This document shows positions 49,949 through 63,900 of a DNA stretch of 64,000 nucleotides, one piece after another (position 1 is the stretch's first letter; every line of letters starts with the position of its first letter). The notes beneath the pieces were generated by a model. The model worked only from the letters and a program-made list of their open reading frames with translations, was not told the origin of the DNA and ran no database searches. Made by a program: the position numbers and the translations under genes. This DNA is from Armatimonadota bacterium (lineage in GTDB: Bacteria; Armatimonadota; DTGP01; JAKQQT01): positions 62,001-126,000 of the forward strand of contig DASXVS010000040.1 of NCBI GenBank assembly GCA_036504095.1. The letters run 5' to 3'.

Positions 49949-51241
49949 ATGGCGGACCCAAGCAATTCAACAACGATGCCCGGAAACCGCGGGTGCGTCG
50001 CGTGCGGAGCGAGTAACCTGCCCACGGCGCAGTTTTGCGCACAGTGCGGCGCGTCACTGCCGCCGATCGGCGGCCAGCCGGCGGGCAACACCAAGTCGGC
50101 GCGCCTGGTCATAGAAGCGCGCGAGCACCTCACCCTTCGCCGGTACGAGGAGGCCGCGCTCACCGCGGAGGCCGCGCTCGTCCTAGACGCAAACTCGGCC
50201 GAGGCGCACCACATCGCCGCGCAGGCCAGGCTGAAGCAGGGCATGAATGCCTCCGCATTGCGCCATGCGGAACGCGCCGTGGCGCTGGACCCGGGAAACC
50301 CGGAGTATCACGCCACCTTGCTCGCAGTGCAGGGGCACGCGGGCTCCGGTTCCTTCGACTGGAATCGTCCGGGTGTGATTGCCGCCGGAGTGGCGCTGCT
50401 GGTCTTGCTGATCATCACCGTCGTGGGGCTCAATATGATGTCCTTGAGGGCTGGCCGCGACACGCAGGCTGATGTCCGACCAACGTCCCCCACGGGCCAG
50501 TTGTCCCCTTATTCCGCCACCGCCGTCCCGGGGCAGGCAACGCCGCAGCCTGTTCGCCCGACCGGTGTCCTCGCGGGCAGGCCTCGTGTTCCATCTCGTG
50601 CCGCGACGCCGCGTGCCTCGGATTTGACGGCGGACTCCGGGACGCCGTCGGGCCAATTCAATCCGACGACCGCGGTCCTGCCGCCGGTGAGCAGCTCGGC
50701 GGTCGGCCTAGCCCCCGCGCCGGTGGACGCTTCTCCTCTGAATCGTTTCTCCACTCCGCAGCCGGCGGCGCCTTCGGCCCGCGCTTCCGCTGCGCCCGCT
50801 CCGGCGCCGCGCGCCGTTGTCGAACCCCCGGCGGCCCACCCGGGTGGGGGAACGCTGTTCGGCGGCAATTCCTTCCCGACACAGCCTGCCGTCACGACCC
50901 CTGCGCCGGACACTACGGAAACCCCTTCCATAACCGCGAATACAGCCGCGACGGTGACGCCGAGGCCGTCGTCACCGCAGCAGGCGTATATGTTGCGGGA
51001 CTATGGCGCCGCGATCCGGGGCTTCCAGCAGCGGATTGACAACGGTGAAGCAACCGGCGCCAATTATCAGCAGCTTGGCCTGGCGTATGAGCGCGTCTCG
51101 GACAAGCGAAACGCCGCGGCCGCCTACCGCGCGGCGATTCTCGCCTACCAGGCGCAGTTGCAATCCGGCGCCGACGCGGACGTTGCCCAGCGTGGCCTTC
51201 GCTCCACGCAACGCGCTTTGATGATGCTGGAGACCCGATGA
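49949..51241 (+). CDS. Zinc-ribbon, TPR and single-span membrane protein
   Basis: 430 residues. N-terminal zinc ribbon CVACGASNLPTAQFCAQCG (16-34), TPR-like helices (about 48-125, ARLVIEAREHLTLRRYEEAA), one membrane helix (about 146-166, AAGVALLVLLIITVVGLNMM), a long proline/alanine/threonine-rich linker (170-345) and a second TPR-like part (350-430). The ribbon and first TPRs would be cytoplasmic and the second TPR set extracytoplasmic. Family not recognised. Overlaps the next TPR gene (ATGA), so the two probably act together in the envelope. Confidence 0.75.
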   Translation: MADPSNSTTMPGNRGCVACGASNLPTAQFCAQCGASLPPIGGQPAGNTKSARLVIEAREHLTLRRYEEAALTAEAALVLDANSAEAHHIAAQARLKQGMNASALRHAERAVALDPGNPEYHATLLAVQGHAGSGSFDWNRPGVIAAGVALLVLLIITVVGLNMMSLRAGRDTQADVRPTSPTGQLSPYSATAVPGQATPQPVRPTGVLAGRPRVPSRAATPRASDLTADSGTPSGQFNPTTAVLPPVSSSAVGLAPAPVDASPLNRFSTPQPAAPSARASAAPAPAPRAVVEPPAAHPGGGTLFGGNSFPTQPAVTTPAPDTTETPSITANTAATVTPRPSSPQQAYMLRDYGAAIRGFQQRIDNGEATGANYQQLGLAYERVSDKRNAAAAYRAAILAYQAQLQSGADADVAQRGLRSTQRALMMLETR

Positions 51242-52275
51242 AACGCAGCCTGATCTTTCTGCTCGCGGGCAGCCTGCTCCTGGCGCCCTCCGTATTGGCG
51301 TCGGAATTCGACGCGGCCCAGACCGCTTCGAGGGAAGGCCGCTGGAAGGACGCGCTCGTGCTCTGGCAGGCCGCTTCGGATAAGTATCCCGCGGATGCGG
51401 AGGTCGCGGCCCAGGTGGGCTTCGCGGAACTGAACACGGGCCGGCTTCCGGATGCCAAACGCACACTGACCCGCGCGGCGCGGCTTTCGCCCTCCAACCT
51501 TCTCGCTCAATCGGGACTGGTTCAGGTGGCGATCCGGGAGCATCGCTTTGATGATGCGGTCAATATCGCATCCCGTGCGGCGAGGGCGCACCCGGACAGC
51601 GCGGACGCCTACCGCTCACTGGGAGATGCCCAGAAAGCAGCGTCCCGCCGATCGGATGCGGAGGATTCCTATCGACGGGCGACCGTGCTGGGCCCCGACG
51701 ATTGGCAGAACCATGCCAGCCTTGCCGACGCAGTGCTGATGCGGAATAAGGCGGATGAGGCGGTGAAGGAGTATCGTCAGGCGGTGCGCCTGAACCCGAA
51801 CGATGGCGCATTGCGAGAGGCGCTGGGTCGGGCCGCCATGCAGGGCGACCTGTACGGCGAGGCGGCGAAGTGCTATGTGGACGCGATCGATTTCGCGCGA
51901 AAGCCGGCTCCGGATTGGGAACGCATTGACAGACTGACCCTTCTGGCCATCGATGCCCTGGGTCGCGCGGCCGTCGCGTTGCGCGATGGCGACCAGGCCC
52001 GCCAGGACGTTTTCGATGCAAACACCAGAGCCCTGACAGTCGCGGACGCGCTGCTCGAACTGCCGATCGTGGCGGATTCCGATCCCCGCGCCAATCCCGC
52101 GATGGCCCAGCGCGCCACGGCATACGCTCTGTTGAGCCAGGCCGCCGCCGCTGACCTTGCGGCTCTTAGAAAGTCAACCGGTTCCGATGCCGCGGACGCG
52201 GCGGTGTATCGCGAACAAGCCAGGCGAGCGGTTGTGGCCGCCCGCGCGGCGGGATTGAAACCCGTCGCTCTCTAA
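51238..52275 (+). CDS. Secreted TPR-repeat protein
   Basis: 345 residues. Signal peptide 1-20 (SLIFLLAGSLLLAPSVLA). About five or six TPR units from 25 to 225 (EAEVAAQVGFAELNTG, AHPDSADAYRSLGDAQKAAS, LGPDDWQNHASLADAVLMRN, LNPNDGALREALGRAA), then an alanine-rich helical region to the end. Likely a periplasmic scaffold. Start overlaps the stop of the zinc-ribbon TPR gene. Downstream is a GC hairpin (52287-52304) before the GH76-like gene. Confidence 0.8.
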   Translation: MKRSLIFLLAGSLLLAPSVLASEFDAAQTASREGRWKDALVLWQAASDKYPADAEVAAQVGFAELNTGRLPDAKRTLTRAARLSPSNLLAQSGLVQVAIREHRFDDAVNIASRAARAHPDSADAYRSLGDAQKAASRRSDAEDSYRRATVLGPDDWQNHASLADAVLMRNKADEAVKEYRQAVRLNPNDGALREALGRAAMQGDLYGEAAKCYVDAIDFARKPAPDWERIDRLTLLAIDALGRAAVALRDGDQARQDVFDANTRALTVADALLELPIVADSDPRANPAMAQRATAYALLSQAAAADLAALRKSTGSDAADAAVYREQARRAVVAARAAGLKPVAL

Positions 52276-55530: not shown

Positions 55531-56763
55531 TTGAACATCGCTATTTTCTCGGAAAGCTACAAGCCCTACGTCAACGGCGTATCGGTGTCCGTAACCACGT
55601 TCACCGAGCAACTGAGGAACCACGGCGATACCGTTCACATCTTCGCTCCCTATATGCCGGACTACGAGGATGAAGACCCGCTTGTGACGCGGTACCCCTC
55701 GGTCCGCTTCAAGTCGCGGTGGCTGCAATACGAGCCCGAATACACGATGGCGCTGGGCCGCTTTCCGGGGCTGCAGTGGATATTGCGCATCGGGTTTGGC
55801 GCAACTGTGTATCGCCTGAACACCCGGCGCGCCCTCGACGATATGCTGGGCCGCCTGGACATAGACCTCATTCACACGCAATCCCCGTTCGCGATGGGCG
55901 CCGAGGGGCGGCGCTGGGCGAAGCGGAGGGGCGTTCCGCTGGTGACGACCTTCCACACCCTCTACACGGAGTACACGCACTACACGCCGTTCATCCCGCG
56001 GTGGATTTCGCTGCCCAGCATCCTCCGCTGGACCAGGATGAACTGCAACGCGGCGGACAGGATCATCGCGCCCACCGAAGCGGCCCGCGACGTGCTGGCC
56101 TCGTGGGGGGTGACGCAGCCTGTATCCATCTTGGCGACCGGTATCCGCACCGCCATGTTCCGCGGCGGCGACCGGGCCGGCATTAGAGAGCGATGGGGCA
56201 TCCCGGACGGCTCGCTGGTGCTGTTGTACGCGGGGCGCGTGGCGCCGGAGAAGAACATCCCGCTGTTGCTGGATGTGCTGGAGAATGTGGCCGCCTCGTA
56301 TCCCGACATCGTCCTCTTGTTTGCCGGGGGCGGCCCCGACCTCGCGCCAACCGAGGCCGCGGCCAATCAGCGCGGGCTGGGGGACCGGGTGCGCTTTGCC
56401 GGTTACGCGAAGCGCGAAGAGATGCGAGACTACTACGCCGCCGCCGACATCCTGGCGTTTCCATCGTTCACGGAGACGCAGGGCCTGGTGCTGTGCGAGG
56501 CGATGGCCGCCGGCCTGCCGTTCGTGGCGGTGGAGTCCCCGGGCGCCCGGTCGGTGCTTCCGGAGGGCTATGAGCGCTATCTGATCCCGAACGACGCTTC
56601 GCTGATGACGCAGCGGGTGCTGGAGTTGGCCGGCGATGCGGACAAGCGGCGGCGCCTGGCGGATCTGGGCCGGGATTCCGCGGAGCGGTTCAGCGAGGAA
56701 GGGGCGGGGGAGCGGCTTCGTGAGATCTACGCGGATGTGATCGCGGAGAAGCGGGGTAGGTGA
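55531..56763 (+). CDS. Glycosyltransferase family 4 protein
   Basis: 410 residues from TTG 55531. GT-B fold. N-terminal domain: IAIFSESYKPYVNGVSVSVT (3-22, the glycine-rich acceptor loop), THTQSPFAMGAEGRRWAKRR and TFHTLYTEYTHY. C-terminal nucleotide-sugar domain: LLYAGRVAPEKNIPLLLDVL, FAGGGPDL, and FPSFTETQGLVLCEAMAAGLPF, which has the E-x7-E motif. It resembles enzymes that add glucose or mannose to diacylglycerol or phosphatidyl-inositol. Cytoplasmic, membrane associated. The lipid kinase at 62815 would fit a glycolipid role, but this is inference. Confidence 0.92.
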   Translation: MNIAIFSESYKPYVNGVSVSVTTFTEQLRNHGDTVHIFAPYMPDYEDEDPLVTRYPSVRFKSRWLQYEPEYTMALGRFPGLQWILRIGFGATVYRLNTRRALDDMLGRLDIDLIHTQSPFAMGAEGRRWAKRRGVPLVTTFHTLYTEYTHYTPFIPRWISLPSILRWTRMNCNAADRIIAPTEAARDVLASWGVTQPVSILATGIRTAMFRGGDRAGIRERWGIPDGSLVLLYAGRVAPEKNIPLLLDVLENVAASYPDIVLLFAGGGPDLAPTEAAANQRGLGDRVRFAGYAKREEMRDYYAAADILAFPSFTETQGLVLCEAMAAGLPFVAVESPGARSVLPEGYERYLIPNDASLMTQRVLELAGDADKRRRLADLGRDSAERFSEEGAGERLREIYADVIAEKRGR

Positions 56764-57239
56764 CGGCCGCCAGATGAACCACGGAGGGCACGGAGGGCAC
56801 GGAGGTTCACGGAGGAAGCGATGAATTCGGAATGCCGACCGGCGTAGCGCGGGCGCCCTCGCCCGTCTCACGGTAGGGACGCCGACGACGGTTGCCGATG
56901 TTTGTCGGCGAGGACGCCGACGACGATTGCCGATGTATGTCGGCGGGGACGCCGACACTACCTGGCGGTTGTCGGCGGGGACGCCGACGACGATTGCCGC
57001 TTTATGTCGGCGGGGACGCCGACACTACCGTGACGGTTGTCGGCGGGGACGCCGACGACGATTGCTGGTGTTTGTCGGCGGGGACGCCGACACTACCTTG
57101 CGGTTGTCGGCGGGGACGCCGACACTACCTGGCGGTTGTCGGCGGGGACGCCGACGACGATTGCCGGTGTTTGTCGGCGGGGACGCCGACACTACCGTGG
57201 CGGTTGTCGGCGGGGACGCCGACACTACTGTGGGTAGGG
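56764..57239. repeat. Array of ten GNRA-loop hairpins between convergent genes
   Basis: 476 nt without a gene. At 56774-56816 the word CACGGAGGG repeats. From 56904 to 57223 an 18-nt unit GTCGGCG-GGGA-CGCCGAC occurs ten times (starts 56904, 56939, 56971, 57006, 57039, 57074, 57106, 57138, 57173, 57206); the first has loop AGGA. Spacers are of two kinds, CGACGATTGCCG-type (17 nt) and ACTACC-type (14-15 nt), which mostly alternate, giving a 67-nt higher-order unit. The GT4 gene ends before it and the macro-domain gene ends at 57240. Confidence 0.95.
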
Positions 57240-57812
57240 TCAGTTGTACGATGCGGCGAACTCGGCACGCCAGGCGGTGTCGAACGCGTCGAAGGTCGCC
57301 TCGTCGATCACCACGAACCGCACATCGCGGATGCTTGAAGACGGGGCGTCGTCCAGCCAGGAGACGGCGGCGCGGAGCATGATTTCGGCGCACCGGTCCT
57401 TGGGGAAGCCGTAGATGCCGCTGGATATGGCCGGAAAGGCGATGCTGACCAACGATTTGGCGTCCGCCAGGTCCAGTGAACACTCAACCGCACTGGCGAG
57501 GAGGCTGTCCGCCTCGAACTCGTCGTGCTGGCTCCAGATCGGGCCCACCGCGTGGATGACGAAGCGGCTCGGGAGGTCGCCGGCGCCGGTCATCGCCGCG
57601 GTGCCGGTCTCCACGATTCCCACCTGGTTGCTTTCGCGCTGGATCGACGGGCCACCCTTTCGCGATATCGCTCCCGCCACGCCGCCGCCGTGCTGCAGGT
57701 GCTCATTGGCCGCGTTGACGATGGCATCCACCGCCTCCTCGGTCAAATCGCCTTTCCGAAGGCTCACACGGGCCCCGGACGCCAGCATCGTGTCGTAGAT
57801 TACCTCGCTCAT
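57240..57812 (-). CDS. Macro-domain (ADP-ribose binding) protein
   Basis: 190 residues. Core macro domain: SLRKGDLTEEAVDAIVNAAN, EHLQHGGGVAGAISRKGG (ADP-ribose loop 1), RFVIHAVGPIW and VSIAFPAISSGIYGFPKD (loop 2), then LRAAVSWLDDA. Similar to stand-alone bacterial O-acetyl-ADP-ribose deacetylases or ADP-ribosyl hydrolases. Both loops are intact, so binding is likely; catalysis is unproven. It overlaps the upstream exchanger gene by ATGA. The stop lies at the edge of the hairpin array. Confidence 0.92.
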   Translation of the reverse strand: MSEVIYDTMLASGARVSLRKGDLTEEAVDAIVNAANEHLQHGGGVAGAISRKGGPSIQRESNQVGIVETGTAAMTGAGDLPSRFVIHAVGPIWSQHDEFEADSLLASAVECSLDLADAKSLVSIAFPAISSGIYGFPKDRCAEIMLRAAVSWLDDAPSSSIRDVRFVVIDEATFDAFDTAWRAEFAASYN

Positions 57813-63742: not shown

Positions 63743-63900
63743 CGGTATATCGGACGGTTTGTCGGCGGGGACGCCGACACTACCGTGTTCGGCATTCATC
63801 GTTCATCATATCGGACGGTTTGTCGGCGGGGACGCCGACACTACCGTGTTCGGCATTCATCGTCCGTTATATCGGACGGTTTGTCGGCGGGGACGCCGAC
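63743..63900. repeat. 61-bp tandem repeat with GGGA-loop hairpins
   Basis: Three copies of GTCGGCG-GGGA-CGCCGAC at 63761, 63822 and 63883, exactly 61 nt apart, each preceded by ATATCGGACGGTTT (or CATATCGG) and followed (first two) by ACTACCGTGTTCGGCATTCATCG. The hairpin unit is the same as in the array at 56904-57223. Confidence 0.95.

Follow-up and report, generated by a model that had tools for sequence, protein, structure and literature searches.

A row of ten hairpins in an Armatimonadota genome is best explained as a cluster of GTAG-type REPs seeded by a RAYT

Why should ten nearly identical hairpins stand in a row between two bacterial genes? The locus lies in a stretch of 64,000 nucleotides of an Armatimonadota genome (the window), in the gap between two convergent genes, a glycosyltransferase gene on the plus strand that ends at 56763 and a gene for a macro-domain protein on the minus strand with its stop codon at 57240. 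The original prediction had already noted this convergent setting, and proposed that the array, if transcribed, forms a chain of RNA hairpins with GNRA loops. We find a different reading better: the array is a BIME-like cluster of GTAG-type REPs, which would have begun as a REPIN (two REPs with their GTAGs outward) seeded by a RAYT encoded on contig C50 and would then have expanded in tandem. We put the probability of this reading at about 0.9. REPs are small palindromic DNA repeats. RAYTs, the REP-associated tyrosine transposases, are HUH single-strand nucleases that are thought to copy REPs around bacterial genomes. An origin as GTAG-type REPs beside a RAYT explains the anatomy of the array and largely replaces the RNA interpretation.

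There are indeed ten 18-nt palindromes at 56904-57223. They had been described as identical, which holds for nine of them (GTCGGCG-GGGA-CGCCGAC), while the first has the loop AGGA. The units recur every 32-35 nt from start to start and are separated, as predicted, by two mostly alternating spacer types, in the order B A B A B A A B A. The type-B spacer is 17 nt long (GACGATTGCCGATGTAT at 56922-56938; pattern GACGATTGC...T). The type-A spacer is 14-15 nt long (ACTACCTGGCGGTT at 56957-56970; pattern ACTACC...GGTT), contains, as CTAC, the GTAG that belongs to the REP before it, and would mark the junction between repeat units. A palindromic repeat at a regular 32-35 nt spacing could suggest a CRISPR array, but the spacers are 14-17 nt long and not unique, single copies of the repeat are dispersed elsewhere in the genome, and none of the neighbouring genes examined is a cas gene. 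The two recurrent spacer types contradict CRISPR, in agreement with the original prediction, and we give this identity practically no credence.

The ends of the array carry GTAGs that point outward. At the left end (56869-56886) lies what reads as a truncated eleventh unit, CACGGTAG fused to the last part of the hairpin, GGACGCCGAC, with an outward GTAG of its own at 56873-56876. At the right end, a GTAG on the minus strand (ACTAC on the plus strand, 57224-57228) directly follows the last unit and ends 12 nt short of the macro-domain gene's stop codon. Six of the ten units have a GTAG (CTAC on the plus strand); the four that lack it count against the REP-RAYT explanation. Matches to the unit with up to three mismatches number 15 in the whole window, against 0.39 expected from shuffles. 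The assembly is a fragmented draft of 80 contigs, and the exact copy number of the array could be collapsed, which we also count against our reading. A second REP family, GTAGCGCGGGCGCCCTCGCCCGT, is represented by one copy at 56844-56866 on the plus strand, right next to the array; this is the family that flanks a RAYT gene on contig C45. Also beside the cluster, at 56780-56815, is a short 9-nt tandem repeat, CACGGAGGG, which is unrelated to the hairpins and recurs, exactly or nearly so, at nine further sites of the genome.

Which strand carries the unit? Because the stem is palindromic, direction is readable from the loop and flanks only. In 38 of 39 copies with a GTAG on one side only (from the window array and the REP regions fetched genome-wide), the GTAG is on the strand whose loop reads TCCN; the minus strand of the window is therefore the strand of the REP unit. 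The corresponding binomial P of 1.5e-10 is a rough guide only, as it treats copies as independent and tandem copies are not. The unit is GGTAG-TGTCGGCG-TCCN-CGCCGACA, of the GTAG type: GGTAG, then a perfect 8-bp stem with a 4-nt TCCN loop, a layout that most copies show. The ten hairpins at 56904-57223, read on the minus strand as (GGTAG)TGTCGGCG-TCCC-CGCCGACA, all agree in loop polarity. Only the first hairpin of a locus on C41 breaks the rule, which would be expected had copying switched between identical arms of adjacent hairpins.

This polarity bears directly on the RNA proposal, in which a chain of GNRA hairpins, transcribed as part of the 3' end of either neighbouring gene or of both, would dock into receptors or proteins. 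The plus strand does fold strongly as RNA (z = -11.3), and the array stands between convergent genes with its right end 12 nt from a stop codon. On that strand, however, the loop is NGGA, with 27 GGGA and 27 AGGA among 56 genome copies, and since AGGA does not fit GNRA, the loop is not conserved as such. Moreover, loop polarity follows the GTAG on the other strand, and the minimum-free-energy fold of the full plus strand as RNA pairs neighbouring units with each other instead of forming ten separate hairpins. Ten separate hairpins are predicted for the minus strand folded as single-stranded DNA. No Rfam family reaches its gathering score, a search at relaxed thresholds gave nothing convincing either, and the pattern is absent from 60 relatives. 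These results do not support a chain of GNRA hairpins in RNA, and we consider such an RNA role very improbable.

How widely is the unit spread in the genome? A count of this kind had been suggested with the original prediction. The 18-mer is present in about 50 copies when one mismatch is allowed (reversed control, 0). The GTAG-bearing 24-mer GTAGTGTCGGCGTCCCCGCCGACA has 45 copies at up to three mismatches (reversed control, 0). In nine of them the stem is preserved by paired changes, at two stem positions: the first stem pair changes from T-A to G-C in four copies (GTAGGG...CC), and the third from T-A to G-C in two copies (GTAGTGGC...GCCA) and from T-A to C-G in three (GTAGCGCC...GGCA). A second array, at 63761-63900 on the minus strand, has three units of the same REP in the same direction with a 61-nt period, and it too lies between convergent gene ends. 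In the 17 stretches examined, all REP clusters are outside called genes (approximate calls with a simple codon model). On contig C24 (L084, 3986-4158) the REPs are interleaved with another repeat, GGCACGGAGGCCCGACCTACCGATG, which itself resembles a GTAG hairpin (GTAGGTCGGGCCTCCGTGCC on the other strand).

Could the array be a plain tandem expansion of a chance palindrome, unlinked to any mobile element? Its copies are regularly spaced and were probably multiplied locally. But the same oriented unit recurs between genes at many further sites and flanks a RAYT gene on either side, and compensatory stem variants exist, so that we hold this explanation to be extremely improbable. The REP 23-mer at up to one mismatch was found in none of 60 relatives, ranging from the same family to the same phylum, and by this measure the window REP family is lineage-restricted. 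The dispersed copies beside the RAYT gene contradict an unlinked repeat. As for the gap between the glycosyltransferase and macro-domain genes, the sole relative in the same family is too distant for an empty-site comparison.

Which gene could have moved these REPs? There are seven Y1_Tnp genes in the genome, and a scan of their flanks shows that inverted pairs of GTAG hairpins bracket only two, each with its own REP family. One of the two, on contig C50 (51097-51555), stands between copies of the window REP at 51023-51046 (minus strand) and 51599-51622 (plus strand), with further copies outside this inverted pair. The other, on contig C45, is intact and is bracketed by GTAGCGCGGGCGCCCTCGCCCGC, the second REP family. 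The five IS200-type genes are flanked by neither family, and all pass the IS200 cut-off of NCBIfam; the L032 gene has, about 1 kb away, one isolated GTAG hairpin that is unrelated. With the NCBIfam model REP_Tyr_transpos, the two RAYT-like genes score best (76.0 and 79.5 bits), both just below the cut-off of 80, which counts against our explanation. The sole PDB match of the C50 protein is TnpA-REP 4er8. Its motifs DHVH, WQ and YVAGNP are like those of class 2 enzymes, whose motif list includes HxH, W[QE] and Y-x-x-x-NP (PMC6006769). These motifs come from a read-through translation: the C50 gene has one in-frame TGA, which was read through for the searches only. Because TGA terminates other genes of this genome, e.g., the glycosyltransferase gene at 56763, the C50 gene is probably broken, unless the TGA base is an assembly error. 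The RAYT may thus no longer be active, a further point against our reading, and no intact RAYT was found for the window REP family, the intact one on C45 having the other family. Beside the interrupted gene on C50 (L036, 1926-2080) there is also a decaying row of hairpins with a 43-nt period.

We infer mobilisation by the C50 RAYT followed by local expansion. By recognising GTAG and the hairpin in single-stranded DNA, the RAYT would have planted a REPIN in the gap between the convergent genes. The type-B spacer was probably the internal spacer of this ancestral REPIN, because close copies of it occur at C41:13969-14056, a locus of three hairpins with outward GTAGs. With a palindrome this close to perfect, an inverted pair doubles as a direct repeat, and replication slippage or unequal recombination could therefore have expanded the REPIN to ten or eleven hairpins. 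In the course of this expansion, the right-hand unit would have spread through the array together with its loop polarity, and the type-A spacers would be the joints between expanded units. Loci with one hairpin (C10:602, GTAG on both sides), two outward-facing REPs (C24:44220 and C71:231435), three hairpins (C41) and ten or eleven (the window) form a contraction-expansion series, which hints at how a direct array can arise from an inverted REP pair.

Does the array now serve the genes beside it? It might have been recruited as a bidirectional terminator or 3'-end stabiliser for both convergent genes, with the hairpins under selection in the transcripts; this is compatible with a REP origin and concerns present function. 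Both arrays are in convergent gaps near stop codons, and the hairpin varies in fewer columns than the type-B spacer (1/18 versus 4/17; not significant, P = 0.18). Such roles are described in the literature, where effects of REPs on mRNA stability, on Rho-dependent termination and on supercoiling are reported (PMC2817692, PMC3733652). However, a search of the array region found no promoters, no intrinsic terminators and no T-tract, many loci of the same REP family sit between codirectional genes, and recent spread and homogenisation would make the hairpins uniform as well. Lying between convergent gene ends is consistent with a role in transcripts but is no proof of one. We regard recruitment as unlikely; in the REP-RAYT explanation, any influence on transcripts nearby, be it 3'-end protection, Rho-dependent termination or gyrase binding, would be a putative by-product.

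Are RAYT relatives elsewhere accompanied by similar hairpins? We scanned 29 loci of RAYT homologues in the phylum (L042-L070, of which L067 is the C45 gene of this genome) and found 39 GTAG hairpins in their flanks, compared with 1.6 in shuffles; in the 64 kb of the window there is just 1 once its two arrays are set aside. A different family of the phylum (L057 in relative G025, 977-2852) has thirteen GTAG hairpins of two kinds and in both orientations around a RAYT homologue, a BIME-like layout. The closest RAYT homologue found (51% identity) is from an Omnitrophota MAG and sits between long arrays of its own REP, GTAGGACAGGCCTCCGTGCCTGTC, which has 261 copies in that genome; the two arrays fetched have 13 exact copies each, all in one direction. 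A second homologue with 51% identity, from an Azospirillaceae MAG (L082), has no GTAG hairpins nearby, which counts against the REP-RAYT explanation. It is tempting to hypothesize a RAYT clade, represented here and in the Omnitrophota MAG, with REPs that typically build up into long arrays of one direction, perhaps through insertion of REPs beside REPs by the RAYT and not through passive slippage. We offer this as speculation that is unlikely to hold. A literature search for RAYTs in MAGs returned unrelated matches only. More generally, the locus is a warning that regular hairpin arrays in draft genomes can mimic structured RNA or CRISPR while being REP clusters.

How does the array compare with known systems? 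E. coli BIME-2 is a tandem array with alternating spacer types, whose units alternate in orientation. Two spacer types are common to both, but the alternating orientation is not, as the loops here face the same way in 10/10 units. With the GTAG-type REPs and BIMEs described in the sections covered of Di Nocera 2013 (PMC3733652) and Nunvar 2010 (PMC2817692), the window family shares a GTAG 5' of a short GC-rich palindrome and extragenic, multicopy, clustered occurrence; its dispersed extragenic copies also show compensatory stem changes. The Stenotrophomonas REPs given there (e.g., GGTAGTGCCGGCCGCTGGCCGGCA; PMC2817692) likewise have a perfect 8-bp stem right after GTAG, while the stem and TCCN loop of the window REP were not found among the families compared from these sections (PMC3733652, PMC2817692). 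REPINs are inverted REP pairs mobilised by a RAYT, and tandem clusters of REPs and REPINs have been described (PMC3116915, PMC3733652). Unlike the REPIN/REPtron systems, the RAYT here has an in-frame stop, and the array is a ten-unit direct one with four units that lack GTAG. The kind of system is already well known, and what is added is a new GTAG-REP family and two RAYT/REP pairs from a little-studied lineage. They have in common with the REPIN/RAYT/REPtron systems (Bertels and Rainey 2011, PMC3116915; PMC8266576) a RAYT gene bracketed by two inverted copies of the same REP, doublets with outward GTAGs, and tandem REPIN clusters, including clusters beside RAYT genes.
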